A DNA stretch of 63,449 nt from Candidatus Rifleibacteriota bacterium (lineage in GTDB: Bacteria > Muiribacteriota > Ozemobacteria > Ozemobacterales > Ozemobacteraceae): assembly GCA_012520995.1 (NCBI GenBank), contig JAAYNI010000088.1, positions 1-63,449 of the forward strand, in the 5' to 3' direction. Of the stretch, positions 23,330-63,449 are shown piece by piece. A program made the translations under genes and the position numbers. The notes beneath the pieces are model-generated. The model was not told the DNA's origin, searched no databases, and was given only the letters and a program-made list of their open reading frames with translations. The stretch's first letter is position 1. The number at the start of each line of letters is the position of its first letter.

Positions 23330-23358
23330 TTGCGTAATGATTGAACTGTACGTATAAT
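23330..23358 (+). promoter_or_regulatory. Sigma70-type promoter of the first C25 protease
   Basis: A TTGCGT -35, exactly 17 bases and a perfect TATAAT -10 (23353-23358) lie 42 bases before the TTG start. A nine-T tract lies just upstream of the -35. Confidence 0.6.
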
Positions 23359-23400
23359 AGTAAGACGCTTAAAAAAGAAAACCATGTAGGAGGAATAAGC

Positions 23401-25356
23401 TTGAAAAGAAGAATAGCACTACTTTTAGCCCTAGGCATGCTCGCAGCAACATCATCTTTTGCTGCCGGTATCAGTGTTTCTGCAACCAGAGGAGTAAATA
23501 CCTCTTTTTTAGTGGAATGTCCGAAAATAGAACTTTCATCTTCACAGACAATTGATGGACAAGAAACAGTTTCAATTTCTGCTCCTGAAGCATCTGTAAC
23601 CTTTGATAAAGGTGCTCCTGAGCTCCCCATGTATTCAGCCCTTGTTATGCTGGAACCCAATACACGCCCTGTGTTCTCTGTAAAGAGCCTTGAAAGCGTT
23701 GTGTCTGATGTTGAACTTCCCATAGTTCCCAGCAGAGGTCACTTCACAAGAAATATTGACCCCGCAACAGTTCCTTATGAATTCGGTTCTGTTTATGGAA
23801 AAGATGCTTGGTATCCTGCCGAAAAAGACATGGTCAAAATTGGCAAACCCTTTATTTTCCGTGAAATTCGCGGTGCTAACCTTTCTGTTTTCCCTGTGCA
23901 GTATAACCCTGTAAAGAAACAGATCAAAGTTCACACCAAAATCCAGGTGACTGTTTCTTATGAAAAGAAAAATTCTCCCAATACAATTCGCAGAAGTCAG
24001 TCTATCAGCAGCGTTTTTGAGCCTATCTACAAAAGCACTTTCATCAACTATGAACAGGCTTCCAGCAGATTGCCAAAACTCAAAGAAACTGGCCGACTTC
24101 TTATCATAACTGCTGACAAGTTCGCTTCTGCTATGAAACCTTTCGTAGCTTGGAAAAAGAAAATCGGCATTAAAGTCGACATGGTTCCTCTGAGCAAAGT
24201 TGGAAAAACCAATACTGATATCAAAGCTTATATTCAGGCTGAATATGACAAAGGCGGACTTACAAATATTCTGCTTGTTGGCGATGCTCAGCACATTCCT
24301 ACCAACAAGGGTGTAAACGAAAGAGCCGATTCAGACCCCTGCTATACCAAACTTGCTGGCGATGACCACGTCCCCGATGCAATGATAAGCAGAATTTCTG
24401 CTGAAGACGAAGCAGGCGTTGCATACCAAGTAGCCAAGATCATTAACTACGAAGCTTATCCTACACAAAATAAATCTTGGTATACCAGACTTCTTGGAGT
24501 AGGTTCCGCTGAAGGCAGACCCGCTGACTACACCTACATTGATGATATAAAGAAAACTCTGATTGCTAAAGGTATTATGACCGATGGCTTCAATGCCTAT
24601 GATCCAGGTGCTAAAGCACAGCAGGTTACCGATGCTGTTAACGAAGGCGTTGCTCTTATCAACTACCTCGGACACGGTTCAGGCACTTCATGGGGCACAA
24701 CCAGATTCAGCAACCGCGATATGTCAAGCCTCAAAAATGGCAACATGCTTCCTATTATATTTGACGTAGCTTGCGTTAACGGCAGATTCGTTAACTTTAC
24801 AGGCTTCGGCGAAGCTTGGATGAGAGCTGGCAATATTGACAACCCTGCTGGAGCAGTCGGTTACTGTGGTTCTACCACTAATATGGCTTGGATTCCCCCC
24901 ATCCATGTTCAGGCTGAAATCAATAAAGTCTTCATAGCTGACAAAGCTTATAAGACTTTCGGCGGTCTCTTCTTCAACGGTATCATCAAAGGGCTTGAGC
25001 TCTATACAGCAAATGCTAAAGGTCAAGGCGTAATGATGATGGAACAGTGGCACATGTTCGGCGACTCCACAATGCAAGTTCGCTTCGCTCCTCCTGCAAC
25101 TGTCAAATCTACATCCAAATCTGTTAGAAGCGAAGATGGCGTGACTGTTAACATTAAGGTCGCAGATGAAGAAGGCAAACCTGTAGAAAATGCAAGAGTA
25201 ACTGTTTATACTCCTGGCGTTGAAAACGTAAGAGTTTCCTACTCCAACGTTGACGGCGATGTAACTGTTACAATGCCTGCAGGCACAACAGAAGCTTACT
25301 ACACCGTAGTAGGTGCAGAAGTAGCTCCTATAGTTGACGCTGCTGTAAAACTCTGA
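23401..25356 (+). CDS. Secreted C25 (gingipain-type) cysteine protease, paralogue A
   Basis: The start is TTG 23401, seven bases after AGGAGG; it opens a signal peptide ending near SSFAAG. The 651 residues contain a pro-region with beta-strand pattern (to about 210), the C25 caspase-like catalytic domain, and a C-terminal Ig-like domain (about 560-651). The catalytic pair is clear: His425 in NYLGHGSG and Cys458 in FDVACVNGRF, as in gingipains. No sorting domain of the type IX secretion kind is seen at the C-terminus. Its paralogue at 27533-29617 is strongly similar over the whole length. It has a matched promoter (23330) and a strong terminator (25383), so it is a single-gene unit, probably well expressed. 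The substrate is unknown. Confidence 0.92.
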   Translation: MKRRIALLLALGMLAATSSFAAGISVSATRGVNTSFLVECPKIELSSSQTIDGQETVSISAPEASVTFDKGAPELPMYSALVMLEPNTRPVFSVKSLESVVSDVELPIVPSRGHFTRNIDPATVPYEFGSVYGKDAWYPAEKDMVKIGKPFIFREIRGANLSVFPVQYNPVKKQIKVHTKIQVTVSYEKKNSPNTIRRSQSISSVFEPIYKSTFINYEQASSRLPKLKETGRLLIITADKFASAMKPFVAWKKKIGIKVDMVPLSKVGKTNTDIKAYIQAEYDKGGLTNILLVGDAQHIPTNKGVNERADSDPCYTKLAGDDHVPDAMISRISAEDEAGVAYQVAKIINYEAYPTQNKSWYTRLLGVGSAEGRPADYTYIDDIKKTLIAKGIMTDGFNAYDPGAKAQQVTDAVNEGVALINYLGHGSGTSWGTTRFSNRDMSSLKNGNMLPIIFDVACVNGRFVNFTGFGEAWMRAGNIDNPAGAVGYCGSTTNMAWIPPIHVQAEINKVFIADKAYKTFGGLFFNGIIKGLELYTANAKGQGVMMMEQWHMFGDSTMQVRFAPPATVKSTSKSVRSEDGVTVNIKVADEEGKPVENARVTVYTPGVENVRVSYSNVDGDVTVTMPAGTTEAYYTVVGAEVAPIVDAAVKL

Positions 25357-27532: not shown

Positions 27533-29617
27533 TTATATATCAGTATTTGGCCTGACCTGCTTGTCCAGCCTGTCCAGCTTGTCCAGCCTGACCTGCTTGT
27601 CCAGCCTGACCTGAGCCTGACCTGCTTGTCCTGTTTCGTTTGCGTTAGCTGGAGTAACGGAAATTTTAATAGGTTCGTCTATTATGGGGGTTATACCATT
27701 ACCTGTAACCGTATAATAAAGTTCTGAGTGTTTGGCAGGAATAGTAACGGCAGCTTCGCCTTCTATGTTTGTATAGGCGAGTCTGAGCATTTTCAGTGTG
27801 GGTTCGTATACGGTAACTATAGCGTTTTCAACAGGATTGTTATCTTCATCTGCAACTTGAATTTTCACTGTTAAAGCGTCTTCACTTCTGGCAGTTGTAT
27901 TTCTTGATTTCACAGAAGCGGGAGGTCTGAAGTTAACTCTCATTGTTGAATCACCGAACATATGCCATTGTTCCATCATCATAACGCCATCACCGTGCGG
28001 GTCGGTTGAATATATCTCAAGACCTCTGATAATACCGTTAAAGAATAGACCGCCAAAAGTTTTATAAACCTTGTTTCCTATGAAGACATTATTGATCTCT
28101 TTTTGTACATAGATTGGGGGAACCCATTCCATACTAGTAGTGGAACCGCAGTAACCCACAGCGCCTGCAGGGTTCTTAATTGAGCCCGCTCTCATCCATG
28201 CTTCACCGAAGCCTGTGAATTTAACGAATCTTCCGTTTAAGCAAGCAACGTCAAAGATAATAGGCATCTTGAGACCGTTTGAAAGTTTGCTCATGTGGTC
28301 GTTGCTGAATTCCGATGTGTACCATTCTGTGCCTGTGCCGTGCCCAAGGTAGTTGATGAGCGAGACGCCTTTGTTGACGCCATCAATAACTTGCTGGGCT
28401 TTTGCACGTGGGTCATAAACTTTTATGGCATCTTTCATTATGCCCTTTTCTTCTACAAGGGTTTTTCTGATGTTGTCAATATACTCATAGTCTGGCTGCT
28501 CGCCTTCATCAGAGGCCACACCCATCATTCTCGTGTACCAAGACTTGTCTTGTGTTGGATAAGCTTCGTAGTTGATTATTTTGGAAAGCTGATAAGCAAC
28601 GCCTTCTTCATTATTGGCAGATATTCTGCTTATCATGGCATCGGGTACATGATCATCGCCTGCGAGTTTGGTATAGCATGGGTCTGAATCGGCTCCTTCG
28701 TTTACGCCTTTGTTGGTGGGAATGTGCTCGGAGTCTCCAATCAGGAGTATATTTGTGAGTCCGCCTTTGTTATACAGATTTTGAATATAAGTTTTAAGAC
28801 CCTTGCTTGTATTGCTTACGTTGCTCATAGAAACGATGCTGACTTTAATGCCACATTTCTTTTTCCAATCGACAAAGGGCTTTATAGTACGCATGAATCT
28901 GTCTGGCGTAACTATAAGCAAACGACCTGTTTCTTTGAGTTTTGGCAATCTGCTGGAAGCCTGAGCGTAGTTGATAAAGGCATTTTTATAGAGAGGTTCA
29001 AATACTGAGCTGATAGGAGTGTTTCTTCTGATTCTGTTGGGTGATTCTTTTTTCTCATAAGAAAGAGCTATTTGGATCTTGTTGTGAACCTTTATCTGGT
29101 TTTTGACCGGATTATACTGAACTGGAAAAACTCTGAGGTTTGCTCCGCGAACTTCACGGAATATGAAAGGTTCTCCCATTTTGACCATATCGTTGTCAGC
29201 GGGGTACCATTCGTCTTTTTCATAAACAGAACCAAATTCATAAGGAACAGTTGAAGGATCAATACTTCTTTTAAAGTTGCCTCTGCTTGGAACTATAGGA
29301 GAGTCAAGATCTAATATGTTACTCTCAAGACTCCTTACATTAAAAACCGGCTTGGTTGTCGGATCAAGCATGACAAGAGCTGAATAAAAAGGCAGAGCTG
29401 GAGCTCCTTTTATATAGGACTGGGTGGTATTTTCAGTTGATATTGCCACTGTCTGTTGTGAATCGATAGTCTGGGAAGGGATAATTTTAATTTCAGGACA
29501 CTCAACTATAAAAGAAGTGTTGGGTCCTCTGGTTCCGGCAACACGTATTCCAGCAGCAAAGGACGATGTCGCTGCAAGCATAAGAACTAGTAATGCTAAG
29601 GATGTTTTCCTCTTCAT
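27533..29617 (-). CDS. Secreted C25 cysteine protease, paralogue B, with repeat-encoded tail
   Basis: This 694-residue protein has the same order as paralogue A: signal peptide (LALLVLMLAATSSFAAG), pro-region, C25 catalytic domain and Ig-like domain. The catalytic residues are intact: His426 in NYLGHGTG and Cys459 in FDVACLNGRF. The ATG at 29617 has AGGAG upstream. It differs from A in a C-terminal tail of about 40 residues encoded by 18-bp repeats (27549-27631). The tail begins as GQAGQA, then shifts to QVRLDKQVRLDK because one repeat lacks seven bases; the unshifted frame would give a Gly-Gln-Ala array ending in KY. The gene has a promoter at 29662 and a terminator at 27458. Its function is probably extracellular proteolysis. 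Confidence 0.92.
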   Translation of the reverse strand: MKRKTSLALLVLMLAATSSFAAGIRVAGTRGPNTSFIVECPEIKIIPSQTIDSQQTVAISTENTTQSYIKGAPALPFYSALVMLDPTTKPVFNVRSLESNILDLDSPIVPSRGNFKRSIDPSTVPYEFGSVYEKDEWYPADNDMVKMGEPFIFREVRGANLRVFPVQYNPVKNQIKVHNKIQIALSYEKKESPNRIRRNTPISSVFEPLYKNAFINYAQASSRLPKLKETGRLLIVTPDRFMRTIKPFVDWKKKCGIKVSIVSMSNVSNTSKGLKTYIQNLYNKGGLTNILLIGDSEHIPTNKGVNEGADSDPCYTKLAGDDHVPDAMISRISANNEEGVAYQLSKIINYEAYPTQDKSWYTRMMGVASDEGEQPDYEYIDNIRKTLVEEKGIMKDAIKVYDPRAKAQQVIDGVNKGVSLINYLGHGTGTEWYTSEFSNDHMSKLSNGLKMPIIFDVACLNGRFVKFTGFGEAWMRAGSIKNPAGAVGYCGSTTSMEWVPPIYVQKEINNVFIGNKVYKTFGGLFFNGIIRGLEIYSTDPHGDGVMMMEQWHMFGDSTMRVNFRPPASVKSRNTTARSEDALTVKIQVADEDNNPVENAIVTVYEPTLKMLRLAYTNIEGEAAVTIPAKHSELYYTVTGNGITPIIDEPIKISVTPANANETGQAGQAQVRLDKQVRLDKLDRLDKQVRPNTDI
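27549..27631 (-). repeat. 18-bp tandem repeat encoding the C25 B tail, with a 7-bp deletion
   Basis: On the coding strand the unit is GGACAAGCAGGTCAGGCT. There are four full copies (one with two changes) and one truncated 11-base copy at 27603-27613 that lacks the first seven bases. Since 18 is a multiple of three, only the truncated copy changes the frame. Confidence 0.9.
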
Positions 29618-38797: not shown

Positions 38798-41299
38798 TTA
38801 AAAGGGGAGCTTTTTGGAAAGTTCTATTAAGAGCTCTTTCACAGCAGACGAAGGGTCTTTTCGGAGAGAAGGGATATATTGGTTAAGCAGGATAGGGTTG
38901 AGTTCCATGATTGTTTTGATTGCATTAAGCCGTACTAGCTCGCTGCTGTCAAAAAGCATTGCGGTTGTCTGTGGCAAGAAGATGTTTAAGTTTGTGACCT
39001 TTATTACCCACAAGGCAGTTGCTCGCATTTTTTCATTAGAGTCAGTCAACATTATGCTAACTGCTGGCACAATATCTCTGTTTCCGTATTGTTTCAAGCC
39101 TACAAGAGCATTTCCTCTGACTCTGTTGTCTTTGTCATCTGCAAATGGCAAGAGCATATGAACAACATTTTCTTCGCCCAGGTTTGCTATTGTTTCAACG
39201 GTGTTTGCTCTTACTCTTGCATCAGGATCTCTGAGGCATTCAGTTAAGCTATATATAGCCTCTTTGTCGCCTATGGCTCCAATGGTTCGCACTACAGCAG
39301 AGCGTACAAGGTTTGAAGGATCTTTCATAGCTTGGACCAATACTTTTTTAGTTTCTCCGCTGATACGCAGATGTTCTAAGAGGATCGCAGCTTGAAGCCT
39401 TACTTGCGGATCGGAAGATGTCAGCTCTTCTGTAAGATCCTTGGTGAAACCGCCGTCAAGTTTTTGCAGAGCTTGCCCTGCTATTTTTCTGGTTTCTGGA
39501 GGCATATCAGCATAGGTTTTTCTGAACCTTTGTTGAGCCAAGTCTGCGAATTTTTCGGTAGCATATTCTCTTATGAGAGGATCTGAAGAATGGAGGAAAC
39601 TTGCCAAAACTTTAGCTAGTTCCGTATCATCTGGAGTGAATGTCGTATTTGTAAGGGCAAAAAAAGCTACTTTTTCATCAGGGTCTTTAAGAGCTTGTCT
39701 AAAGCGTTTCTCCGCATTGGGAAGTCGTTTTTGCTTAAAAAGTTTAAGAGCTTGCAATCTGAGATTTCCTTCGGGATCTTCCAATGCGTTTGTTAACAAA
39801 TCTGATGGGTTGCGGGATTCTGCAACCGCCAGTTCCAAAGCTGAAGCTCTGATATCAGGATCTTTATCTTTGAAGTGATGCTCAAAGGACATGCCTGAAA
39901 AGCGGTCTAGAAAGTTTTTTATAAAAGCGGTTTTGTCTTCTTTGTCTGTAACGTTGCTGAAGAGCTTCAGCAGAAGTCTCCATAGATTTTCATCAGCATG
40001 GGGCGTTATGGTTGTTAAAAGAACGGATAAAATAGCCGGTTCTTCTTTTTGAATGATAGAAAGCTCTTTGGTTTGGTTTTCAAAAGGCCATGTTTTCAAA
40101 GCCTGATATGTTTCATTAAAATGTTTTGTTATCAGGTTAAATCCGAAAGGTCTGAAAAGTTCGGAATTATTTTTTGCGAATATAAAGAATAGTTTTCTTA
40201 TATATTTCACTTCTTCTGGAGAGAGTTTTGAATCCTGCATGTAGTTTTGAACAGTGTTTTCCCAATTTGTATAAAGAGTAGCCAAGTCTTCCCTAGTAAG
40301 CTCATTTTGGTTTTGTATTCGTTTATAAGTGGTTTCAACTAAATTTTCCAAAACTGGAAATATTTTTTCTGCCATCTCGGGTTGTTTCATGGACTGTTTG
40401 AAAAGAAAGTCAAAGCAATAGGGATCAGCTTTTTCGAGCAATTTAGACATAGTTTTTGCTGCGTAGGCTTTGTTTGGCAGAGCTGAAACGAATTTTAAAA
40501 AAGCTTCTTTGTGTCCTTTTGGAAAGTGTTTTTCTAGTAATTCGTCTATTAGAGGGATTAGGCTGGAAAAAGAGCTGTGAAACTCCTTTGAGTCTTCAAG
40601 AGCAGTTATAATATCAGGAGATGGATATTCAAAAATTGCCTTTAAAATAGCATCTTTTTGTGAAGCTTCTGCTTCTGTATAATAGTTGATATAGAGAGGT
40701 ATAAAATCAGGGCGGTTGAATTTTCTTATGAAAGGAAAATAAAAGTCTTTTAGCATGAGATCGCTCTTAAGGAAGTTTTCCTTAAGATAAGCGAAGAGAT
40801 TCATTTCCTCCATCAAAAGATTCAATTCCAGATAATAAAGGCTTTCTTCAGAGGAGCCTGAAAGCAGTTTCAATATAGAAGGCAAGATATCTTTGCCATA
40901 CTCTGTTTTTATTGTTTTACGTGCTTTTTCTTTTAGATTGTCATCAGAGTCTTCTCCTATGATTTTGAGAAGAAAAGTGGCGGCATCGGCTGTCTTTATT
41001 ACTCCTGTCGCTTCTATAATATTTTCACGAAACTCAGGATTTCCCATTTCAAATATGTCAATCAGAAGCGGGATGGCATCATTTATTTGTCTTTTTCCTG
41101 CTATTCCTATCAAAGCAAGAGTTACTGTCGGAAGCAAGCTTTCGTATTGAGCCAAAGATTCAATAATAAGCTGATCGGTGTCTTCGTTAGAAGATTTAGC
41201 AAGCTCGTTGTATGCAGAGCGTCTAACAGAAATATCGGGATTGGAGAGATCTGCCAGAGCTTCTTTTGGGTTTCTTTTGCTTTTAAAAGACCATTTCAT
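38798..41299 (-). CDS. HEAT-repeat protein (833 aa)
   Basis: The chain is built of HEAT or PBS-lyase-type helical repeats. The C-terminal third is most regular (DPDARVRANTVETIANLGE, then DNRVRGNALVGLKQYG). The N-terminus already shows NPKEALADLSNPDISVRRSAYNELAK. No signal peptide, membrane span or catalytic motif is visible, so it is a cytoplasmic binding scaffold by structure. The ATG overlaps the stop of the preceding HEAT gene (ATGA). The two share repeat style but not overall alignment in the middle, so they are distant paralogues. Function unknown. Confidence 0.85.
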   Translation of the reverse strand: MKWSFKSKRNPKEALADLSNPDISVRRSAYNELAKSSNEDTDQLIIESLAQYESLLPTVTLALIGIAGKRQINDAIPLLIDIFEMGNPEFRENIIEATGVIKTADAATFLLKIIGEDSDDNLKEKARKTIKTEYGKDILPSILKLLSGSSEESLYYLELNLLMEEMNLFAYLKENFLKSDLMLKDFYFPFIRKFNRPDFIPLYINYYTEAEASQKDAILKAIFEYPSPDIITALEDSKEFHSSFSSLIPLIDELLEKHFPKGHKEAFLKFVSALPNKAYAAKTMSKLLEKADPYCFDFLFKQSMKQPEMAEKIFPVLENLVETTYKRIQNQNELTREDLATLYTNWENTVQNYMQDSKLSPEEVKYIRKLFFIFAKNNSELFRPFGFNLITKHFNETYQALKTWPFENQTKELSIIQKEEPAILSVLLTTITPHADENLWRLLLKLFSNVTDKEDKTAFIKNFLDRFSGMSFEHHFKDKDPDIRASALELAVAESRNPSDLLTNALEDPEGNLRLQALKLFKQKRLPNAEKRFRQALKDPDEKVAFFALTNTTFTPDDTELAKVLASFLHSSDPLIREYATEKFADLAQQRFRKTYADMPPETRKIAGQALQKLDGGFTKDLTEELTSSDPQVRLQAAILLEHLRISGETKKVLVQAMKDPSNLVRSAVVRTIGAIGDKEAIYSLTECLRDPDARVRANTVETIANLGEENVVHMLLPFADDKDNRVRGNALVGLKQYGNRDIVPAVSIMLTDSNEKMRATALWVIKVTNLNIFLPQTTAMLFDSSELVRLNAIKTIMELNPILLNQYIPSLRKDPSSAVKELLIELSKKLPF

Positions 41300-43752
41300 T
41301 GCAATTTTGCTTTCTTTTTCGGTTTAAGCAGATTATCTACTTCGTTGCGTACTGATTCATCAGGATCAATCCTCATAGGTTTTATGTAAAACGCTAGTAA
41401 ATTAGGATCGACAATCTTTCCTAAAGCTTTTACCACATTTCTTCGAACATCGGGAGATTTATCTCTGGCTGCTTGCAGAAGAGTTTGAAAATAAATAGGT
41501 TCTCCCAGCTCTCCAAGCGCATAGACAGCGGAAGCTCTCATCCAAGGATCCTGATCTGTCAGCATAGCGGCTATTTCTTTGAAGATATCCGTATAACCCA
41601 ACTTTCGCAAGGTTATTATAGCATTTGCCCTGACACGGTTGTTGGAGTCTTCCAAGGTGGGTAAAATGCGTTCAATATAAGTATAGTCGGCCAAGTTTCC
41701 TAAAGCTTCTACTGCGTTTGCTCTTACGCGACTGTCTTCATCAGCTAAAAATGAAGACAATAAGTCAGCGACCGAGGGGCCGCCTATTTTCCCCAGTCCC
41801 ATTATTACAACTGCTCTGACACGGGGATCTGAGTCTTTTATAGAGACTATGAGGTTGGTTTTCAACTCAGGTGTCATATACTCATGTAAAACTTCAAGTA
41901 TTTGAGCGGCTTTAACGCGTTTATTCAAGTCCGCGGAGGTGAGTTGTTCGGTTATTTCTTCCATAAAATCCGGCAGAGCATGGACAAGATATATTCCGAC
42001 TTTGAGTTTAGCTTCTTCCGGCATTTTATTAAAACCGGCCAGATATTTTCGCTTGGTAATCTCTAATACTGCTCTGCTAGCCGCTGTTTTTATTTCTGGA
42101 TTTTCGGCATTGAGCAGCGGAGAGACATTCATTATAATTTCAGGATGATCAGATTTTCCTAAGGCTTTGAGTAGAGGAACGGCGACTGAGGGGGCAGGGT
42201 CAGTTATCATAGCCAAAGATGTTTCCAAACTGTAGTCTTCAGGAAACTTGCCTGATATCACGGCCTTTACTATGGCTTCTCTGACAGATGTTGCCGCATC
42301 TTGCCGTTTTTCCTTAATCAGATCGCGTGCGGTTTGAGTGTCAGATTCTGCAAGTATATTGATGATTGTAGCTCTGAGTTCTGTATCTTGGTGGTAGAGA
42401 ACTTCTTTAATAAATTTGCTGAGATTCGGTTGAAGCAATAGATTTATAAAAGACTTTTGAGTATCTCTAGATAAGAATTTGAAGTGATCCAACATAATAG
42501 TATTTAAGGTGTCTATTATATATTTTTCTGAGGGATCGCTTAAAATTTCCAGAACAGTTTCAACTGTTAATATATCCGGATATTTGGCTCCTTCTATTAG
42601 CAAAAGCTTTCGCTCTTCAATGGGCAAGCCTGAAAGAAAGCTTGTTAAATAGGTTTTGTTATGCTGATAAATTTTTGCGAAGTTACGAAGTATTATGTCC
42701 CGATCGAAGTGTCCCAATATCAATAAACATTCTGTAAAAAGTTTGCTTCCGGTAAAGTTTTGTTTTGAGAGATTTTCTTCTATGGGGCGAGTGAGAAAGT
42801 GCAAATTTTCGAGTTCGCCTGGCTCATTTATGTCAAAGTTTTTATTTGAGTCAGCATCGTCCCGGTAGTTACGTACAATTCTGGAAATAATATTAGCGGC
42901 GCTTTGAGCTACAGAGGGATTGGGTTCTTGTAAATAAGAAAAAACATAGGGGTAAGAATTAATATCAGCAAGCTGTTCAACCAATTTCATTATCAGATGT
43001 TTTTGCTGTTCGTTTCTGAGAAGAAACTTATCGAAAAGCAGGTCGTAAAATTCGTTTCCAAACTTTTTAAAGCTGGAAAAAATTGGGGCTCTCAAAGTTG
43101 TGTCTATCAGATCAAAAGCCTGAATGGTTTCTGTCATGAAGCGTTTGTCTAGTATTTGAGGCAAATACTTCAGGAACTTTACTTGGAGAACCCGTTTTTC
43201 TTCTTTTACTTCTTCTAGCGTCTCTTCTTTTATTATTTCTTGGAAAATAGCGTATACTTCGTCAGATTTGAAAAAGATTATTTCATCCAAGTGAATAATT
43301 TTTTCTTTTGAGTTGTATTCTTTCCAGCGACTAAGAATTTTCTCCAAAATTCCGGAAGCTTGTACTATTGCATGAATTAAGCTTTTTTCATCTTCGCTCT
43401 TGGTTTTTGCCAAATAGGCTGTAACTGCCGCAAGATTATTATCGTTGATCGCTGACAAAATATTTTTAAAACTTTTACGTATGAGAAGATCTTCATAAGA
43501 AATCAGAGGCATAATCTTGCCAAGAGCCTCTGTGTCAAGGATATCTTTAACTTGCTCAAAGATATCCAAAATGAGCAGTCTTATGCGTTGATCATCATTT
43601 GTCTTAAAACAGTGAATTAAAAAATCTATTATGTCATATGAAATGTACGCAACAAAACGTTCTTTCGCCTTAGCCGATTCTTTTATATCAATAGAAATCA
43701 GCTGTTGAAAGGTTTCTTCTAGGTCAGTAATTTTTTTTACAAACCATGACAT
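41296..43752 (-). CDS. HEAT-repeat protein (818 aa)
   Basis: Residues 1-500 are helical and less regular, with clear HEAT units from about residue 560 (SDPRVRAVVIMGLGKIGG, DEDSRVRANAVEALGNLAD, DQDPWMRASAVYALGELGE). It ends in a short basic tail (LLKPKKKAKLQ). There is no signal peptide. It is translationally coupled to the following HEAT gene and lies 55 bases after an SH3/TPR gene in the same direction. Repeats of this form bind proteins or nucleic acid; the basic tail could favour the latter, but that is only a hint. Confidence 0.85.
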   Translation of the reverse strand: MSWFVKKITDLEETFQQLISIDIKESAKAKERFVAYISYDIIDFLIHCFKTNDDQRIRLLILDIFEQVKDILDTEALGKIMPLISYEDLLIRKSFKNILSAINDNNLAAVTAYLAKTKSEDEKSLIHAIVQASGILEKILSRWKEYNSKEKIIHLDEIIFFKSDEVYAIFQEIIKEETLEEVKEEKRVLQVKFLKYLPQILDKRFMTETIQAFDLIDTTLRAPIFSSFKKFGNEFYDLLFDKFLLRNEQQKHLIMKLVEQLADINSYPYVFSYLQEPNPSVAQSAANIISRIVRNYRDDADSNKNFDINEPGELENLHFLTRPIEENLSKQNFTGSKLFTECLLILGHFDRDIILRNFAKIYQHNKTYLTSFLSGLPIEERKLLLIEGAKYPDILTVETVLEILSDPSEKYIIDTLNTIMLDHFKFLSRDTQKSFINLLLQPNLSKFIKEVLYHQDTELRATIINILAESDTQTARDLIKEKRQDAATSVREAIVKAVISGKFPEDYSLETSLAMITDPAPSVAVPLLKALGKSDHPEIIMNVSPLLNAENPEIKTAASRAVLEITKRKYLAGFNKMPEEAKLKVGIYLVHALPDFMEEITEQLTSADLNKRVKAAQILEVLHEYMTPELKTNLIVSIKDSDPRVRAVVIMGLGKIGGPSVADLLSSFLADEDSRVRANAVEALGNLADYTYIERILPTLEDSNNRVRANAIITLRKLGYTDIFKEIAAMLTDQDPWMRASAVYALGELGEPIYFQTLLQAARDKSPDVRRNVVKALGKIVDPNLLAFYIKPMRIDPDESVRNEVDNLLKPKKKAKLQ

Positions 43753-53454: not shown

Positions 53455-55050
53455 TCAGAAGGCATCTAAGGGTGAGTAATCTTTTACGCATTCTTTGAGC
53501 TTGTTTGAAATTTTATTCACGGCTATAGTTGCATTAAAGATATCATCGCTGGCTGCAAGGACTTCATCCATTGTTGCTGAGAGAACCTTTCCGTATTTTT
53601 CACGGGCTTCTTTTTTTAACAGCGGATTGTCCCTTTGCAAAATATAGCTGGACCCCATGCTTTTGCTTTGTCCTTTCTCTTGAAAGTAGGACATGGACTC
53701 TTTTTTGGACATAGCTCGTCTTTTTTCTAGGCCGCTTCTTTCAGCAGGAGTAGGAACCTGAATTCCTGCGAGAGTAACATAATACATGAACAGTTTTCTT
53801 TCTTCTTCGGTGAGAGCTATAGTATTTTTTATCTTTTCTCTGGTTGGAAATTGCTCAAAAATATAGTTCATCTTTTTATGTCCGCCGCCAGGATACTGCG
53901 TATCGATATATTCATAGTCGGAAAGTGTGCTGCTGGTAGTGTCTGTAGATGAAATATAAGGATTGTTAAAAGTGATATTCATTTCTTCTATTCCTAAGGA
54001 ATAATTTTTAGGGGACTTTAAAAAGTTGGGCAAGATAACTACAGCATCTTTCGATTGTTCTTTAGCTTGTTCTTGTTTTTTATTAGAGACACTTGAGGTT
54101 ATTATTGGTTCATAGGTTGAGAGTTGAGTTTTGTCAAGCTCGTCTAAGAAGACAAAGTCATCATCATCTTCCCAGCCGCCAAAGTGTTCTTTTTTTCCTC
54201 CAAAGATTATATTACCTGTGGGAAAACCGAAAGGTCGGTTTTGGGTGTTTTGGCGACTGGAACCTTTAGGTTGCATTAAATCTTGAGTTGGTTTACGAGC
54301 AGAGCCATACGTTTTATAGTTTCTTCGCGGCACTCTTAATTTTTTGGATAGATCCTTTGTATTAACTTTGTACGGGAAGGCTTCAAAAAAACTGGGATCC
54401 CAAACTAAGACATATTCTCCATCTTCAGTTTTTAGCGGTTTGGCTAATTCTGTTAGAACATCGTTGATGTTCATAGTTGCCACTTTTCTTATCATGTCTT
54501 CTTTTGTTTGGAAGTTTGTTTTAATTATGTCAAAGATCTTTATGGTTCTATCTTCGCAGTCAGAAAGCCATTCATCATCGGGATTTTCATTTTTTAATTT
54601 TTGCATTTCAGAGCTGAAATTTAGTTCAGCTCTTTCGACTGTATTTTTGATATCTGTTATCATGTCTGTCCATTTTTGAGCCAACATTTGGACTATATCG
54701 TCAGCTAAGATCCCGACAGCAACGCTATAAGGATCCATGAAACCGGTTTGTGGATCATACATGCCTTTTTCTTTCAATAAAGCAATATAAGCAAAGTAGG
54801 CTTCTCGGTATTCTTGATTCAGTCTTGGCAAAATGGCTTCATATTTTTCTTTGTCGAGCGAGCCAGTTGATTTTGTTCTGCATCTAACAACATTGTCATA
54901 AGCGAGAATATAACGTAAAGTGGCTTTTTCCAAGCTTACTATATGAGATTGCTCTACAGTGAAGCGGGAAACTCTATCATTGTTAGCATTTAAATTTAAA
55001 GTCACGGCAAAAAACATCATGAGTAGAGCGTAAGTATATTTCCTTTTCAT
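53455..55050 (-). CDS. Unknown exported protein (531 aa)
   Basis: A signal peptide (YALLMMFFAVTLNLNA) starts the protein, and a good GGGAGG precedes the ATG. The N-terminal 200 residues look helical; a Gly/Phe/Asp patch near 290 (FGGWEDDDDFVFLDEL) and a Ser/Thr-rich stretch follow, then a helical C-terminus. No domain is recognised. It sits between the pseudopilin genes and a cyclase, all on the same strand with gaps under 30 bases, so it may be part of the secretion module or a cargo. I assign no function. Confidence 0.8.
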   Translation of the reverse strand: MKRKYTYALLMMFFAVTLNLNANNDRVSRFTVEQSHIVSLEKATLRYILAYDNVVRCRTKSTGSLDKEKYEAILPRLNQEYREAYFAYIALLKEKGMYDPQTGFMDPYSVAVGILADDIVQMLAQKWTDMITDIKNTVERAELNFSSEMQKLKNENPDDEWLSDCEDRTIKIFDIIKTNFQTKEDMIRKVATMNINDVLTELAKPLKTEDGEYVLVWDPSFFEAFPYKVNTKDLSKKLRVPRRNYKTYGSARKPTQDLMQPKGSSRQNTQNRPFGFPTGNIIFGGKKEHFGGWEDDDDFVFLDELDKTQLSTYEPIITSSVSNKKQEQAKEQSKDAVVILPNFLKSPKNYSLGIEEMNITFNNPYISSTDTTSSTLSDYEYIDTQYPGGGHKKMNYIFEQFPTREKIKNTIALTEEERKLFMYYVTLAGIQVPTPAERSGLEKRRAMSKKESMSYFQEKGQSKSMGSSYILQRDNPLLKKEAREKYGKVLSATMDEVLAASDDIFNATIAVNKISNKLKECVKDYSPLDAF

Positions 55051-55075
55051 CTTCTGCCTCCCATATTCCTCATAT

Positions 55076-55774
55076 TTAATTATAATGTTCTATCTTATTC
55101 TTGACAAGGACATGCTTGGCTTGATTCCACTTGGAATGCAGTTGAGGCGGAAGATCCTTGGCTGCTTTGTCAAGCTGTTGTTCGTATGCGTAGTGAGATT
55201 GGACAATCTCTGAGGTCATGAGATCCTCGTAGGTCATCAAATCTGCTCCTCGAGAGTTTATTAAGGCAATTTTACCTTTTACTTGATTTAAATCCATGGA
55301 TTCTTTTGTGATCCAATAGTCGGAAACTATTATGGTGTTATTTTCCGGCAAAAGAGAGATTTCGTTATTTTCGTCAAGCACTAGAAAATGCTCAGCTTTG
55401 GCAGCAAAAATATAGTTGCTATTTTCAGTTTCCTGCTTTGAAGCCAAGGTTGCTATAAACTGACTGAATAGACCTACACCCATGTAATACGAGTGAATTT
55501 CTGATGGCAAAGCATTTAGTTCGTCTCTTGCTTGGATATTGTTGTAATTGGGAATAAAGTGATGCAGAGCATAGAGTGTGTAGTTGAAGTCAGCAATAGC
55601 GATTCCTTGAGCATCTATTTCGGTTCTGAGTCTGATTACTTCCCGAGTTCTGGCTGAAGCTGTTGAGGAAAGAAATAGGATTACAGGAAACATTATTGCT
55701 ATCAAGCCCAAGGCTACGAAAAGTATCATTCCGCTTCTGGAATTTCTTGCTAAGCTTGCTTTTGAATTTTTCAT
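55076..55774 (-). CDS. GspK-like pseudopilin
   Basis: I start it at ATG 55774, nine bases after GGGAG; the longer frame to 55798 has no ribosome site. The N-terminus has a prepilin-type segment SRSGMILFVALGLIAIMFPVI with a Gly before the hydrophobic helix and no Glu at position 5, as in GspK. The soluble part of about 200 residues is mixed helix and strand and shorter than classical GspK (about 300). It is the third of three pseudopilin genes here, which together match the I-J-K tip complex of type II secretion. Confidence 0.65.
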   Translation of the reverse strand: MKNSKASLARNSRSGMILFVALGLIAIMFPVILFLSSTASARTREVIRLRTEIDAQGIAIADFNYTLYALHHFIPNYNNIQARDELNALPSEIHSYYMGVGLFSQFIATLASKQETENSNYIFAAKAEHFLVLDENNEISLLPENNTIIVSDYWITKESMDLNQVKGKIALINSRGADLMTYEDLMTSEIVQSHYAYEQQLDKAAKDLPPQLHSKWNQAKHVLVKNKIEHYN

Positions 55775-55817
55775 CTTTATTAGCTCCCGATTATACATAC
55801 AAGTCAGCTGTATGGCA

Positions 55818-56375
55818 TCAGCTGTTTAAGAGATAAGCACTGTCCAGCAAGGGATAACCGTTTGATTCCATGTAGATTTTTACAAAACTTGGTTTGTCAA
55901 TAAGAATTGTAAAAAGAACCTTGTCTATGTCTTTGGCTAAAATGGTTTTCTTTATATTTGCAGTGGATGATATGCCGCTGGAGAAGGCGATCACATGTCT
56001 CTTGAGAGTTCGAGTGCCTTTGTCGTAATAATAGAAGATTATGTCTCCAGTGAAGTTTCTGAAGATCAATACATTTGAAGTAAAGCAGGTTTGCTCTGGA
56101 GCGTCGGGATCAGAAGAAGGCATGGCGAGTGGATCCGGATGAAGAATGTCTCTGGCGGTTTGAAGCTCTGTCTGCATATGTGCTGCTGCGAAACCCATAG
56201 TTTGCTGAGCAGCTGAGAGAGCGGTAACTTTTTTTTGCTGGCGGGAATTGAAGTGAATCCATGTGCCGAAAGCGAGAAAAACAAAAGTTGACAGAGTAAG
56301 AGCTATCATCAGCTCTATCATTGTGAAAGCTGAGTTTTTCTTTTTGCCGTTGTTGTTAAAGTGAGCGTCGTACAT
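55818..56375 (-). CDS. GspJ-like minor pseudopilin
   Basis: The prepilin signal is clear: KKKNSA then FTMIELMIALTLSTFVFLAFG, with Phe at +1, Glu at +5 and Ala (not Gly) at the -1 position. The 185 residues fit GspJ/PulJ. The soluble domain has the ALSAAQQTMGFAAAHMQTELQTAR helix common in this group. The ATG lies 20 bases inside the gspI-like gene. The product would be a tip pseudopilin acting with its neighbours. Confidence 0.82.
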   Translation of the reverse strand: MYDAHFNNNGKKKNSAFTMIELMIALTLSTFVFLAFGTWIHFNSRQQKKVTALSAAQQTMGFAAAHMQTELQTARDILHPDPLAMPSSDPDAPEQTCFTSNVLIFRNFTGDIIFYYYDKGTRTLKRHVIAFSSGISSTANIKKTILAKDIDKVLFTILIDKPSFVKIYMESNGYPLLDSAYLLNS

Positions 56376-56934
56376 AGCTTTCCAAGGGGTATACCATGGG
56401 TGTGTTTTGGTAAACCCAGGTTATTCTAATCATTACATACTTAATTTTAGGTTTTAAGGCTAGATATTTATTGTCTACAAGAATACTGTCAGATTTGTCT
56501 TTCATGACAATCTCAAAACGGTAATCGTATATCTCAAGAAAGTCGTTCAGGTTTTGGACAGGGAGCGGGGGAGGATTCGAATCGTCATATGCTGTTGATT
56601 CTCCGGCGGCAGCGAATAAAGCCGGATATTTATGAAAGAGGTTTTGGTCATACAGGTCGGCAAAATAACAGAATTTGCCATGTGAGACGGCGGTTTCGTT
56701 TTGAGGTTTTGTGGGAGGTACGGAAACTATTTCGTCAAAGTTCATCGCATACATTTGTTGGCGAATATATCTGGCCATAGATGCTGCGAAGAGAGCATGA
56801 TTTGCTTTGCCTATCTGTTTGGTTGAATTAGTGTAGCTAATCATTGCGGGAGTCATAAAAAGAGATATTATAGCTATAGCTATCACAACCTCTGCTAAGC
56901 TCATAGCTGTCTTTTGGGTTCTTTGCTCTTTCAT
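56356..56934 (-). CDS. GspI-like minor pseudopilin
   Basis: The N-terminus has a prepilin signal, RTQKTA then MSLAEVVIAIAIISLFM, with Met at +1 and Glu at +5, as in GspI/PilV proteins; the -1 residue is Ala. The rest is a helix followed by a strand-rich domain of about 140 residues. The ATG is in the ATGA overlap with the TPR gene stop, behind GGGAG. The order I, J, K after a TPR membrane protein suggests the tip of a type II or type IV-like pilus. The ATPase, platform and major pilin genes are not in the window. Confidence 0.8.
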   Translation of the reverse strand: MKEQRTQKTAMSLAEVVIAIAIISLFMTPAMISYTNSTKQIGKANHALFAASMARYIRQQMYAMNFDEIVSVPPTKPQNETAVSHGKFCYFADLYDQNLFHKYPALFAAAGESTAYDDSNPPPLPVQNLNDFLEIYDYRFEIVMKDKSDSILVDNKYLALKPKIKYVMIRITWVYQNTPMVYPLESYVRRSL

Positions 56935-58501: not shown

Positions 58502-59119
58502 TTAAACGCTTTTTTGCGATGGTTTAAAAAACCTTGCTACTAAATAAAGTTCTCTGCTGGAAGCTAGAGAGGCTTTAGGATTATACGATTTTGCAAAGTC
58601 AAAGTTTTTTTTAGTTTGTCTGAGGAGCTCTGAGTAGCCTTCTCCCTCAAATACCTTAGCTACAAAAGAACCGCCAGGCTTTAGGAGCTCATAGGAAAGA
58701 TTCAAGGCGGCTGTAACCAGTTCTATGGAGTTATCCGCGTCAGCGTAGTGTATTCCTGTCGTATCAGGCGCCATGTCGCTGAGAACCAGATCCAGTCCTT
58801 TTGGAGCTAATTTTCTGATTTCGTCCTGTTTTTCCTTGCTTCTTAAATCGCCTTGCAGAATTGTGACCTGTTCAATCGGTTCTATAGGGAGAAGATCTAT
58901 AGCGATCACAGATGACTTGCCGCCTGTTTTTCTGGCGATGTATTGAGACCAGCTGCCTGGAGCCGCGCCTAAGTCGAGTATTTTCATGCCTGGCTTTATC
59001 AGAGAATATTTTTTGTCTATTTCTTCCAGCTTGTATGCGGCTCTAGATCTGAAGCTGTCAATGCGGGACTGTTTCAGATAATGGTCGTTGAGCCTTTTTT
59101 TAAACCAAGCTTTAGTCAT
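58502..59119 (-). CDS. rlmE: 23S rRNA (uridine-2'-O-) methyltransferase RlmE (FtsJ)
   Basis: RlmE methylates U2552 of 23S rRNA. The catalytic tetrad K-D-K-E is present: Lys30 (AAYKLEEI), Asp115 (LSDMAP), Lys155 (FVAKVFEG) and a Glu near 190 (SSRELYLVA). The AdoMet site is LDLGAAPGSWSQY. The 205-residue length matches. The ATG lies four bases after the stop of the ushA-like gene, so it shares its transcript, an association with no obvious functional reason. Confidence 0.95.
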   Translation of the reverse strand: MTKAWFKKRLNDHYLKQSRIDSFRSRAAYKLEEIDKKYSLIKPGMKILDLGAAPGSWSQYIARKTGGKSSVIAIDLLPIEPIEQVTILQGDLRSKEKQDEIRKLAPKGLDLVLSDMAPDTTGIHYADADNSIELVTAALNLSYELLKPGGSFVAKVFEGEGYSELLRQTKKNFDFAKSYNPKASLASSRELYLVARFFKPSQKSV

Positions 59120-59123
59120 TCTG

Positions 59124-60773
59124 CTATTCCAGTGTTTTTTCAGACAGGCGTATATTGTTAATTCTAGGCTCAGGTTTTGTATTTATTGCTTTCTGTTTCT
59201 CTAAATACCAGAGCATAGCGTCTCTTACTTTTATATCTGTTTTCTCATGTCTTTTGTAATTTTTAAGGTTTGAGAAACCATCGCCGCCGCTAGCTATAAA
59301 ATCGTTAAATACTACCTTGTAGGTTTTGTCCATGCGAAGAGGTGTTTTGTCGTCCATTGTGACTTTCAATACTCTTGACATAGGGGGCAGATGGAGGTCG
59401 AATTCTATGTAAAGACCCGCCGGAATCAAGAAGCCGTAGTCTCCGCCAGCTACAAGAGCTGTGCCGTCAACTAATAGATTGTAGGTGGAGAGGGCTGTTT
59501 CTTTATCTTCTCTGCTAAGGGTTTTGGTAGGGTTGGAAAGAGATCTTTCTATAGTATCCAGAATATCTTTGCCTTGCATATAGAGAGTTTCTATTGCGTT
59601 GTCAAAGGGCTGAACTACGAACACGTTTTCAACAGTTATGTTGCCTTTGAAAAGAGATTGTCTTACTCCGCCGTAATTGGCAAAGGCAATGTCTCCATTT
59701 GCTCTTTCCCTCATAGCTTCTGCCATTATGTACCCTGCGTCGGAATTTCCCGAGAGAATTCCTCTGTAAAGGTTTACCTTGCTTGTGGCAATTACTTTGC
59801 TCATTTCTGCTTCAAGCTCTTTAAGATAAGAGTCGGCGACTCTTTGCAAATCTATGTTTTCGCCTATTTCGTCGAAAAGCAAAGGAACAGAAGTAGCTGC
59901 TACGTAAGGAAATCTGCCTTTTTGAAGGTTTATGTGAATTATTCCTGCATTTTTGAAGGAGCTGCCGCTATGAATTATGGGAACTCGTTTTTTGGGAGAA
60001 TATTCAAACTCTTTCCTTAGCATGTGACTGTGTCCGCCAAGTATCAGATCCAAGCCTTCCAGCTGGTCTGCTATGACAAGATCTTTATCTAAACCCAGAT
60101 GGGAAAGCAGAATTATAAAATCTACGCCATGTCTTTTCAGCTTGTTTATATTGTCTTGGACTATAGGCACCGGATCTTTGAAAATAACGTCTTTTACATT
60201 TTTTTCGAAAGATATTGTAGCTGTGGTCGGAGTATTTATCCCGACTACACCGATTCTCATGCCTTCATGAGTGTAAACGGCGTAGTTTTCTGTGAAGGAT
60301 AAAGGTCTGCCTGTAAACTTGTCATAAACGTTGCAACATAGAACTCTGAAGTTGCGCTTTGTCATCTGAGTGACAAGATTGTCATAGGAATAGTCGAATT
60401 CATGATTGCCAAGTGTGACAGCATCAACACCTATACGGTTTAGCATGTCTATCATGACGCCGCCTCTTGTTTTGTCTACTATAGGTGTGCCTTGAAAGAA
60501 GTCTCCGCAATCAAAGTATAAAAATCTTGCACCATTTTTTGTTAAATCCTGTCTGTATTTGTCTACCAGGTTTTGCAAGATGGCGTAGCCGCCTTGTAAT
60601 AGTCTCTCGTTTGTATTTCCTTGTTTTACCAGAGTTTTGCTAATGGCTCCGTGAACATCGCTGGTATGGAAAATATAAAAATCTGCTGCAAAGAGTTCTC
60701 CGGCAATCAAGAGGAGTATTGCGAGAGAGAACAGCAGAGATAGCCTTGTCTTGCGGAATTTGTCTGTTATCAT
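59124..60773 (-). CDS. Exported 5'-nucleotidase/2',3'-cyclic phosphodiesterase (UshA family)
   Basis: A signal peptide (LSLLFSLAILLLIAGELFA) leads into a metallophosphatase domain with HTSDVHG, FDCGDFFQGT, TLGNHEFDYS and GGHSHML metal sites. The C-terminal nucleotidase domain shows FANYGGVRQSLFKG and VVQPFDNAIETL, which bind the base. It would hydrolyse extracellular nucleotides for phosphate and nucleoside uptake. I start it at ATG 60773 (AAGGA about ten bases upstream); the longer frame begins with a TTG. At 549 residues it is the usual length. Confidence 0.92.
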   Translation of the reverse strand: MITDKFRKTRLSLLFSLAILLLIAGELFAADFYIFHTSDVHGAISKTLVKQGNTNERLLQGGYAILQNLVDKYRQDLTKNGARFLYFDCGDFFQGTPIVDKTRGGVMIDMLNRIGVDAVTLGNHEFDYSYDNLVTQMTKRNFRVLCCNVYDKFTGRPLSFTENYAVYTHEGMRIGVVGINTPTTATISFEKNVKDVIFKDPVPIVQDNINKLKRHGVDFIILLSHLGLDKDLVIADQLEGLDLILGGHSHMLRKEFEYSPKKRVPIIHSGSSFKNAGIIHINLQKGRFPYVAATSVPLLFDEIGENIDLQRVADSYLKELEAEMSKVIATSKVNLYRGILSGNSDAGYIMAEAMRERANGDIAFANYGGVRQSLFKGNITVENVFVVQPFDNAIETLYMQGKDILDTIERSLSNPTKTLSREDKETALSTYNLLVDGTALVAGGDYGFLIPAGLYIEFDLHLPPMSRVLKVTMDDKTPLRMDKTYKVVFNDFIASGGDGFSNLKNYKRHEKTDIKVRDAMLWYLEKQKAINTKPEPRINNIRLSEKTLE

Positions 60774-60882
60774 TCTTCTATTGTTCCTTGTCAAGCTTAT
60801 ATTTTGTTTCCCGTTTATTGTGAACTTTGAGTATATAACAAGACCTTAGTATTTTCAAGTTTGCGAGTTTGTGAAATGCACT

Positions 60883-62811
60883 TCAGGAAAGGGGAGAGAA
60901 TTTGCTTTCTCCTGTTACCAGAAGCGTTCCGTCCAGAAGACTTATGCTGCTTTCAACAAATGAAAAGCCCATTTTTCTTTTGACGACTTCAGCTGTTACA
61001 TGCAGAAGCATGTTGGTGGGTACGGGTTTGATATATTTCGTTTTGATCTCAGCAGTCATGTATAATGCCTCTGGGTTTTCTCCCATTGCTGCGTAAGCCA
61101 TAGCTTCGTCAAGTAAAAGTGCGGATGCTCCTCCATGTAAAAAGCCGGCATAACTCTGGTATTCAGGCTTAGAAAACCATGTGAAAGAGCATTTGTGTTC
61201 TTTTGTATAAGTTTTCATGGGCAATTTTAGACCTTGATGGTTTTCAATTCCGCATACAAAGCAGGTGTCGTTTGCTAACAGTTCGGCGGGTTTTGTGTTG
61301 GTTCCGCCTTTATTATTAGAGCCTATCGCTTTTTTTAGGTTTTGTGCGGCTGAATTGTGGGTGGAGTGTGAATTGGAATCGGAATTAGTTTTTGAAATTT
61401 CCGAGGTAGCTATTGCTTGGCTATTTTCTAGAAGCTCGTCATCTGTAAACATGACAAAAAACTGAGCTGTGGCTAAAGTGAGAAGGGTTCCGTCATCTAA
61501 TGATATGGTGCATTCAGTAAAGACTCTGCGACGTTTTGTTTCTGTTATGTGAGCTTCTACCTTGAGAGGCACTCCTAATGGAACAGGCTGTATATATCTA
61601 AGTTTGAAATCGGTGGTGACTATATTCATAGCCATGCCCTCTCCCATTGCCGCATAACCCATGGCTTCATCGGAGATGGCAGCTATTATGCCCCCGTGCA
61701 TGATGTCATCATAGCCCTGCAAATAGCTCGGTGCCGTCCAAGCGAATGAACAGCTGTTTCCTCTGACATACTGCTTTACTGGAATATGAAGACCGAAAGG
61801 ATTGTCAGGACTGCAAACAAAACAGCCTCCGTTTTCAATTAAATGCAGCTTTCTTGAGTTGTAGGTATCAGTTTTCTTAATTATTTGGGTTGTTTGAGGA
61901 CTGTTGCTTAAAATTTTTCTGCGGGGAGGTCTTTCGCGCAATGTAGAGCCATTTTGCTCAAGAATTGTTCTAAGGGTTCTGGGGGCTAAAACATGGAAGG
62001 TTGGATTTCGTGGGTCGCCGCCTACCAAATAAATAGAGGAGAAGTCGGAAAGACCGTGTTCTAGAAGTTTTGGAAAAGCTCTGAAAAGATGAGGCGGGAT
62101 TGATATGGGAAAACTGCCGAAAATTTCTTTGGCGGTTTTAAAACGCTCTTTGAATTCTTCAGGGGAAAGGGGAGGGTAATCATTCATTTCACAGAATTGG
62201 GAGGGTTGGAAAGGTGTCAGTATTATTTCTTGCAAATATGGATCTGTTAGGCACAAATCTCTTATTCTCTTTAAAGAGGTTTCAAAGTCTTCGGCTGTTT
62301 CTCCAATTCCGCAATACAGATTGATAGAATAAGAAAGTTTTTTCTCGGACAGTAATTCAATATATCTTTCAGCAGCGGAAATATTTTTACCCGCTACCAT
62401 TTCAAGAGCTTCTCCTTTGCCTCGGAGTGTGGCGGTCGGAACATTTGCTCTGAACATAAAGTCTTTGTTGGAAAGTATATCCAACTGGCAGGCACTTAAT
62501 TCGCCTATGTCAAAGGTTGGCAAAATTCCTCGCTTAAGAGCAGATTTGCCCGCATTCAGAAGATATTCGGCGTAGGAAGCAAAGCCATATGAGGCCAATT
62601 TTAGCTGTATCTGAGGAAATTCTTCCGGATTGTTGCCAGAGAAGAAAACTGCTTCGCTTGAATCTGCTCTGGCGGCTTTTTGGAGTAAAAGTTCTATGTC
62701 TTCTGGTGCTGTAAGATTGTCAGAGTTGTCAGAGAAAGAGCAAAAACGGCAGTTTTTTGTACAGGTTCTCGTTAAAACTATAGCTGTGGACAGAACATGC
62801 TCAATTGTCAT
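60883..62811 (-). CDS. CofG-like radical SAM protein fused to two hotdog thioesterase domains
   Basis: The N-terminal 330 residues are a radical SAM domain with the cluster CTKNCRFCSFSDN (CX3CX2C). Landmarks resemble CofG, the first subunit of FO synthase: FASYAEYLLNAGKSALKRG, INLYCGIGETAEDFE and LQEIILTPFQP. Two hotdog domains of PaaI type follow (about 370-490 and 530-640), each with a CFVC..N..GL entry motif and an HGG(I/A) active segment with a downstream Asp-Glu-Ala helix. A Ser/Asn-rich linker joins them. I start it at ATG 62811, eight bases after GGAG, because upstream codons lack a ribosome site. The substrate is unknown; this fusion is the most unusual protein here. Confidence 0.88.
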   Translation of the reverse strand: MTIEHVLSTAIVLTRTCTKNCRFCSFSDNSDNLTAPEDIELLLQKAARADSSEAVFFSGNNPEEFPQIQLKLASYGFASYAEYLLNAGKSALKRGILPTFDIGELSACQLDILSNKDFMFRANVPTATLRGKGEALEMVAGKNISAAERYIELLSEKKLSYSINLYCGIGETAEDFETSLKRIRDLCLTDPYLQEIILTPFQPSQFCEMNDYPPLSPEEFKERFKTAKEIFGSFPISIPPHLFRAFPKLLEHGLSDFSSIYLVGGDPRNPTFHVLAPRTLRTILEQNGSTLRERPPRRKILSNSPQTTQIIKKTDTYNSRKLHLIENGGCFVCSPDNPFGLHIPVKQYVRGNSCSFAWTAPSYLQGYDDIMHGGIIAAISDEAMGYAAMGEGMAMNIVTTDFKLRYIQPVPLGVPLKVEAHITETKRRRVFTECTISLDDGTLLTLATAQFFVMFTDDELLENSQAIATSEISKTNSDSNSHSTHNSAAQNLKKAIGSNNKGGTNTKPAELLANDTCFVCGIENHQGLKLPMKTYTKEHKCSFTWFSKPEYQSYAGFLHGGASALLLDEAMAYAAMGENPEALYMTAEIKTKYIKPVPTNMLLHVTAEVVKRKMGFSFVESSISLLDGTLLVTGESKFSPLS

Positions 62812-62869: not shown

Positions 62870-62964
62870 CTTTCGGCCTTTCCCTTGCGATCTTATTAGC
62901 AAAATGATAATTTATGGAACTTTTTTTGTTTATCTTTGTCTATGGTCTTTTGGAGGAACTAAAA

Positions 62965-63449
62965 GTGAAAATAAGAAAAATACTTTTTTTTGCCGCAGCT
63001 CTATGTTTGTTACAGACTTATGCTCTATATGCGGCATCTCTCAATGCGTATGTAGATAAGAATACTGTGGAATTTGGCGACAACATTACTTTGTCCCTTG
63101 AAATTGAAAGCGAATATGGGAAAATTGGCGACTATTCACCGCTGATGAATATATCTTCTATTCCTGGATTCAGAATAGTCGGAACTTCTCGAAGCAGCAG
63201 CACAAGGATTGTTAATGGCAAAGGTATGAGCTCTGTTCGAATGAATTTAACTCTTACGCCGGAAGACACCGGAGAATTGGAGATTCCTGGATTTTCCGTA
63301 ACCGACAGCGAAGGGAATCCTCAATCCAGCAAACCTATTAAGATAACTGTTAAACCCAGAGAATCTTTGGGGTTGCTTAAAGGCTTGGAAAAATCTGAGA
63401 AACTTCAAAATCTGCAAGAAATTATAGAAAAAGAACAGCTTCCTGCTCC
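62965..63449 (+). CDS. batD: BatD-like oxygen tolerance protein, partial
   Basis: The gene begins at GTG 62965, eight bases after GGAGG, and runs off the window end. A signal peptide (ILFFAAALCLLQTYALYAAS) is followed by an Ig-like domain matching the start of BatD: LNAYVDKNTVEFGDNITLSLEIE, GFRIVGTSRSSS, then MNLTLTPEDTGELEIPGFSV. BatD is a membrane-anchored part of the Bat aerotolerance complex, often with BatA and BatB. Only the first 161 residues are visible, so its anchor and neighbours cannot be checked. The call is based on the repeated pattern and is fairly secure. Confidence 0.8.
   Translation, partial: MKIRKILFFAAALCLLQTYALYAASLNAYVDKNTVEFGDNITLSLEIESEYGKIGDYSPLMNISSIPGFRIVGTSRSSSTRIVNGKGMSSVRMNLTLTPEDTGELEIPGFSVTDSEGNPQSSKPIKITVKPRESLGLLKGLEKSEKLQNLQEIIEKEQLPA

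Follow-up and report, generated by a model that had tools for sequence, protein, structure and literature searches.

In the genome of an Ozemobacteraceae bacterium, we identified a gene that joins a radical SAM domain related to CofG with PaaI-type hotdog domains, and found that a core unit of one radical SAM and one hotdog domain recurs as a fusion in 21 of the 24 genomes of this family. The fusion is probably an enzyme with a new substrate. Judging from sequence, the explanation we favor (with a probability of roughly 0.45) is a radical SAM enzyme that is active but has a new specificity, which would be coupled to a thioesterase acting on thioesters of CoA or ACP. As fusions hint at linked steps, a radical SAM-thioesterase fusion would point to a so far uncharacterised reaction that an entire bacterial family has kept. 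If its substrate were found, the fusion would offer a tractable system in which a single polypeptide ties radical chemistry to the hydrolysis of a thioester. The window (the whole stretch of 63,449 nucleotides analysed) is contig C52 of a Riflebacteria MAG (Ozemobacteraceae) of 2.84 Mb and 96% completeness.

Architecture of the fusion protein

The first-pass annotation had described a CofG-like radical SAM domain with a CX3CX2C motif and two hotdogs, each opened by a CFVC motif. All of these were indeed seen in a single uninterrupted frame (Table 1), with a GGAG sequence 8 nt upstream of the ATG and the two CFVC motifs starting at C330 (hotdog 1) and C517 (hotdog 2). With Pfam, Radical_SAM (PF04055) matched one stretch (2.8e-9, 37.8 bits for a gathering cut-off of 29.5) and 4HBT (PF03061) matched two (whole-protein E-value of 8.3e-25, 87.4 bits for a gathering cut-off of 20.6). 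As to a stop or frame error separating the domains, no stop was found between the radical SAM domain and the first hotdog in relatives, and since the same family has fused frames in about 20 genomes, a frame error or an assembly chimera is ruled out. Moreover, the base composition of all parts of the fusion is similar to that of the neighbouring genes, and so the hotdog tail is not an obvious foreign insertion. An Rfam scan of the window gave no match.

Table 1. Features of the fusion gene and its neighbours (window positions)
Feature	Position	Strand	Basis or remark
Fusion protein, complete ORF	60883..62811	(-)	642 aa, ATG start, TGA stop; N-termini homologous in relatives
Radical SAM barrel domain, residues 1-300, sister of CofG	61912..62811	(-)	Pfam, NCBIfam, alignment, tree, model fold
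CX3CX2C [4Fe-4S]/SAM cluster motif, C17/C21/C24	62740..62763	(-)	Invariant in 20/20 aligned family members
GIGE motif, residues 168-171	62299..62310	(-)	GxGE invariant in fusion family and CofG
Hotdog 1 (PaaI/THEM-type), residues 329-457, the family-wide hotdog	61441..61827	(-)	Pfam, alignment, model fold
Hotdog 1 HGG...DE motif, H372-E382; D381 at the PaaI catalytic Asp position	61666..61698	(-)	Asp48/Asp61 assignment from PMC2698920, PMC516016
Low-complexity Ser/Asn-rich linker, residues 458-516	61264..61440	(-)	Low model confidence
Hotdog 2, residues 517-642, lineage-specific duplicate of fused hotdog	60886..61263	(-)	Pfam, identity, tree
Hotdog 2 HGG...DE motif, H559-E569	61105..61137	(-)	Motif alignment
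BatD-like gene start, divergent neighbour, runs off contig	62914..63449	(+)	Divergent Bat operon conserved in relatives
UshA-type 5'-nucleotidase/metallophosphoesterase, conserved downstream neighbour	59124..60794	(-)	Neighbourhood comparison
RlmE/FtsJ-type methyltransferase, conserved downstream neighbour	58502..59119	(-)	Neighbourhood comparison

For the radical SAM domain, the best NCBIfam models were those of CofG, though none exceeded its cut-off; the window protein scored 137.6 (cut-off 209) and 120.5 (cut-off 213), and a typical family member gave 152.3 and 142.4 with the same two models. The MqnC, MqnE, and BioB models were more distant, at 12-23 bits for cut-offs of 225-435. In a tree with CofH as the outgroup, the radical SAM domains of the family were monophyletic (bootstrap 100) and placed next to CofG (bootstrap 92). 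Here, our residue comparison of 20 family members with 11 CofG sequences revealed that the cluster cysteines and the GxGE motif are invariant in both sets (20/20 and 11/11), and that D256 and R294 are retained as in CofG. Nonetheless, outside the cluster and SAM motifs, about 18 positions that are invariant in CofG (11/11) are changed in the fusion family. The modelled barrel of the single-hotdog orthologue from Candidatus Rifleibacterium amylolyticum CH46 (L059/L087; mean pLDDT of 87) matches MqnE, HydG, BioB, ThiH, HydE, and PylB with Z-scores of 21-24. Of all members, the window copy diverges most; several radical SAM residues conserved in the family are replaced in it (e.g., R176 to F, R245 to A, N255 to S, and T299 to K), and hence its own specificity could have drifted.

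The modelled fold of the fused hotdog matches 2OV9, PaaI, and THEM2 with Z-scores of 16-18. A comparison of the hotdog catalytic residues, as proposed at first pass, showed the PaaI motif to be intact, with the HGG and the Asp nine residues after the His kept in all 21 fused hotdogs, both window copies included. This Asp is catalytic in Thermus thermophilus PaaI (Asp48; PMC2698920) and is the proposed catalytic residue in Escherichia coli PaaI (Asp61; PMC516016). The motif cannot give the substrate, however, since in one PaaI-like enzyme that has been characterised, Gln32 and Glu47 are the residues used and benzoyl-CoA is the preferred substrate (PMC13114782). A stand-alone hotdog gene (CLLCGxxNPLSM motif) that forms its own clade is also conserved in several Ozemobacteraceae (L107, L111-L115).

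The second hotdog is found in the window's genome only. It shares 43.8% identity with the fused hotdog of one family member and 41% with its own hotdog 1, and lies inside the fused-hotdog clade (support of 80-90, with some inner nodes weak). It is thus best read as a lineage-specific duplication, and we rejected its acquisition from a stand-alone gene on the basis of this tree position. Accordingly, the tandem hotdogs noted at first pass are real for the window protein, but represent a local duplication rather than the core architecture of the family. In the model of the whole window protein, which is of middling quality (pLDDT of 73, pTM of 0.53), the tandem pair matches the double hotdogs of TesB, ACOT7, ACOT12, and FatA.

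For sequence pairs with unsaturated dS, pairwise dN/dS was 0.08-0.12 for the radical SAM domain and 0.02-0.05 for the hotdog, and both domains are thus under purifying selection and are maintained.

Distribution and gene neighbourhood

A contig scan using the single window protein found no relatives, while an alignment-based scan returned 27 loci, 20 of which are fused; the other seven (L076-L082) are hotdog-only or weak matches, and six of these, L081 excepted, were translated and are stand-alone hotdogs. The fusion's core unit spans about 460-490 aa, and its members are 30-86% identical. Among the 39 genomes of the phylum in which we searched for the architecture, none of the 15 from other families contained the fusion, and the three Ozemobacteraceae genomes without it are 69%, 75%, and 82% complete. 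The 21 positive genomes include one (G007) in which the radical SAM domain of the fusion contains a TAG codon in frame. Genome titles among the relatives are Candidatus Riflebacteria, Rifleibacterium, Ozemobacter, and Ozemobacteraceae, and a few MAGs are apparently mislabelled. In a wider search of 381 genomes, radical SAM matches reached at most 166 bits outside the family versus 357-515 bits inside it. In a separate search, no genome outside the family gave a single match that spans both domains; those outside frames that were read, being part of the outside matches, are CofG proteins with no hotdog. As far as searched, the fusion is confined to the Ozemobacteraceae. The first-pass view that this layout is absent from described enzymes also held, as no NCBIfam model exceeded its cut-off for the radical SAM part and a description of the layout was not found in the open-access papers searched, the latter being weak evidence. 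Both domain families are known, but within the limits of the search we found no earlier description of the two being combined, of this combination being retained throughout the family, or of the lost CofG determinants.

In about 17 genomes, the fusion is divergent from a Bat operon (BatD, MoxR, DUF58, and BatA/B), and on its 3' side in relatives (again about 17 genomes) are a DUF6812 protein and then the UshA-type 5'-nucleotidase and RlmE. The DUF6812 protein is missing in the window; its start overlaps the fusion stop in several relatives (L057-L075, e.g., L059:10362-10622). In some relatives' genomes, a DUF6812 protein is fused to TPR repeats. While the gene order is conserved, no metabolic clue emerged over 20 loci. 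In the relatives examined, we recognised no acyl-CoA ligase, ACP, or biosynthetic operon next to the fusion, and thus neither of the gene types (acyl carrier or CoA ligase) that the first-pass annotation had suggested looking for in conserved neighbourhoods.

Elsewhere in the window, we noticed two gingipain-like peptidase C25 genes with C25 propeptides about 2 kb apart (23341-25356 (+) and 27533-29617 (-)), two adjoining large HEAT-repeat proteins by an SH3/TPR protein (38798-41299 and 41296-43752 (-)), and a run of pseudopilin-like proteins by a 531-aa protein with no Pfam match (53455-56934 (-)). On contig C70 of genome G000 (L051), a LipS2-type lipoyl synthase gene has an adjacent LipS1-like radical SAM ORF (470-1390 and 1369-2328, with the CX3CX2C ORF at 470-1390).

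Proposed function and its alternatives

In the reading we favor, the N-terminal [4Fe-4S] cluster, held by the three cysteines, would cleave SAM to yield a 5'-deoxyadenosyl radical, which would then abstract a hydrogen from a small substrate, as in barrels of the CofG, MqnE, BioB, and HydE type. The substrate pocket is presumably remodelled away from that of CofG, such that no FO would be made. Between two hotdogs, the PaaI-type part may bind a CoA or phosphopantetheine thioester, for which the Asp after HGG would act as the hydrolytic residue. For most members of the family, pairing would bring together the single hotdogs of two chains, whereas in the window species the duplicated hotdog could form a double hotdog in one chain. 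As the likeliest coupling, both domains would serve consecutive steps of one pathway, where either thioester hydrolysis supplies the substrate of the radical reaction or the radical product is freed from CoA or ACP. That both activities persist is suggested by the retained motifs, while it is speculative which thioester is involved and in what order the steps occur. A domain fusion alone is no proof that both domains act on one molecule. Here, the first-pass proposal of radical chemistry on an acyl-linked substrate followed by product release was partly borne out: it fits the retained catalytic motifs of both domains, though none of the neighbouring genes recognised in relatives is an acyl ligase or carrier. 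More tentatively, and with the odds against it, the fusion may represent a new class of radical SAM enzyme, whose barrel, related to CofG, would react with a substrate (perhaps aromatic or cyclic) carried on CoA or ACP, and whose hotdog would then set the product free. Such a protein would catalyse the key step of a cofactor or metabolite pathway that has gone unrecognised and that the Ozemobacteraceae have retained.

Our preference for a coupled enzyme draws on the computed architecture, conservation, purifying selection, kinship with CofG, loss of CofG residues, motifs, and absence of CofH, against which several other explanations were weighed. Hotdogs generally pair, and a non-catalytic hotdog regulator, FapR, is known (PMC516016); a non-catalytic hotdog could similarly be a dimerisation and CoA- or acyl-binding module, whether regulatory or substrate-tethering, for the radical SAM enzyme. 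With no recognised acyl-metabolism genes nearby, we grant this a modest chance, although the HGG and catalytic Asp are invariant in the 21 fused hotdogs and purifying selection is even stronger on the hotdog than on the radical SAM domain. It is unlikely, instead, that two unlinked activities, a radical SAM enzyme and a general acyl-CoA clean-up thioesterase, were joined in the family ancestor. Such a joining would suit the mixed neighbourhood (Bat operon, DUF6812, 5'-nucleotidase, and RlmE), which has no shared theme, and also the fact that the two fused hotdogs and one protein that is FabZ-like by sequence are the sole PF03061 matches in the window genome, yet a separated pair of the domains was not found in the family despite its diverse members.

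It is very improbable that the fusion completes another radical SAM cofactor synthase of this genome as its missing half, whether a lipoyl synthase of the LipS1 type, a biotin synthase, or an enzyme of the futalosine pathway. Its modelled fold does resemble BioB and MqnE, and a radical SAM partner is expected given that LipS2 is present and that the scanned radical SAM genes showed no LipA; however, a 306-aa CX3CX2C protein directly adjoins lipS2, where LipS1 is expected, with the fusion on a different contig, and the MqnC, MqnE, and BioB scores fall far below their cut-offs. A LipS1 identity was rejected on account of this separate ORF. We consider it extremely improbable that the protein is CofG, the FO synthase subunit, with a gained accessory domain in an organism that makes deazaflavin, even though CofG provides the best NCBIfam models (137.6-152 bits) and the tree neighbour. 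CofH was found in none of the six fusion-family genomes tested versus 13 of 15 genomes with CofG-like relatives, and a check for F420 genes in the window's own genome uncovered neither CofH nor CofE. Because the substrate of CofG is the product of CofH (PMC8498797), a role in FO synthesis is unlikely with CofH missing. F420 synthesis was thus rejected, and the approximately 18 lost CofG-invariant residues and the CofG scores below the curated cut-offs also speak against an FO synthase. Automatic annotation by best match, which points to CofG, would lead to a false prediction of F420 synthesis here.

Comparison with known enzymes

The coupled enzyme that we favor has recognisable relatives for each of its parts. 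MqnE, HydE, HydG, ThiH, BioB, and PylB have the same full-barrel radical SAM fold as the fusion, but share only 11-16% identity with it, and scores are far under the family cut-offs where tested. The double-hotdog acyl-CoA/ACP thioesterases TesB, ACOT7, ACOT12, and FatA have an in-chain hotdog pair like that of the window model, although the window pair stems from a separate PaaI-type duplication (9-14% identity) and has a linker of about 60 residues with low model confidence. With PaaI/THEM-type thioesterases (PF03061, TIGR00369; E. coli PaaI, T. thermophilus PaaI, THEM2, THEM4, and 2OV9), the fused hotdogs share the fold and the HGG...D motif, as well as the N-terminal CFxCG..N..GL motif that is also found in stand-alone relatives. 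They differ in being C-terminal to a radical SAM domain and in scoring below the cut-off of the PaaI equivalog (hydroxyphenylacetyl-CoA thioesterase, TIGR02286; 35.9 versus 118.9).

Closest to the radical SAM domain are CofG and the N-terminal domain of FbiC (7,8-didemethyl-8-hydroxy-5-deazariboflavin synthase; TIGR03550, PRK06245). CofG and the fusion have in common CX3CX2C, GxGE, the overall length, and the barrel, but the fusion carries a hotdog and has no CofH partner. Lost in the fusion family are the CofG-invariant residues at window-protein positions 99 (H), 101 (N), 121 (G), 123 (M), 142 (K), 147 (R), 155 (G), 162 (T), 192 (H), 195 (E), 199 (Q), 237 (Q), 241 (N), 259 (G), 269 (N), 274 (W), and 298 (Y), along with an E after position 124. 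Conversely, the family has its own fixed set of residues, unlike those of CofG, which comprises C187, D190-P191, F201-Q202-P203, P213-P214-L215, and E293.
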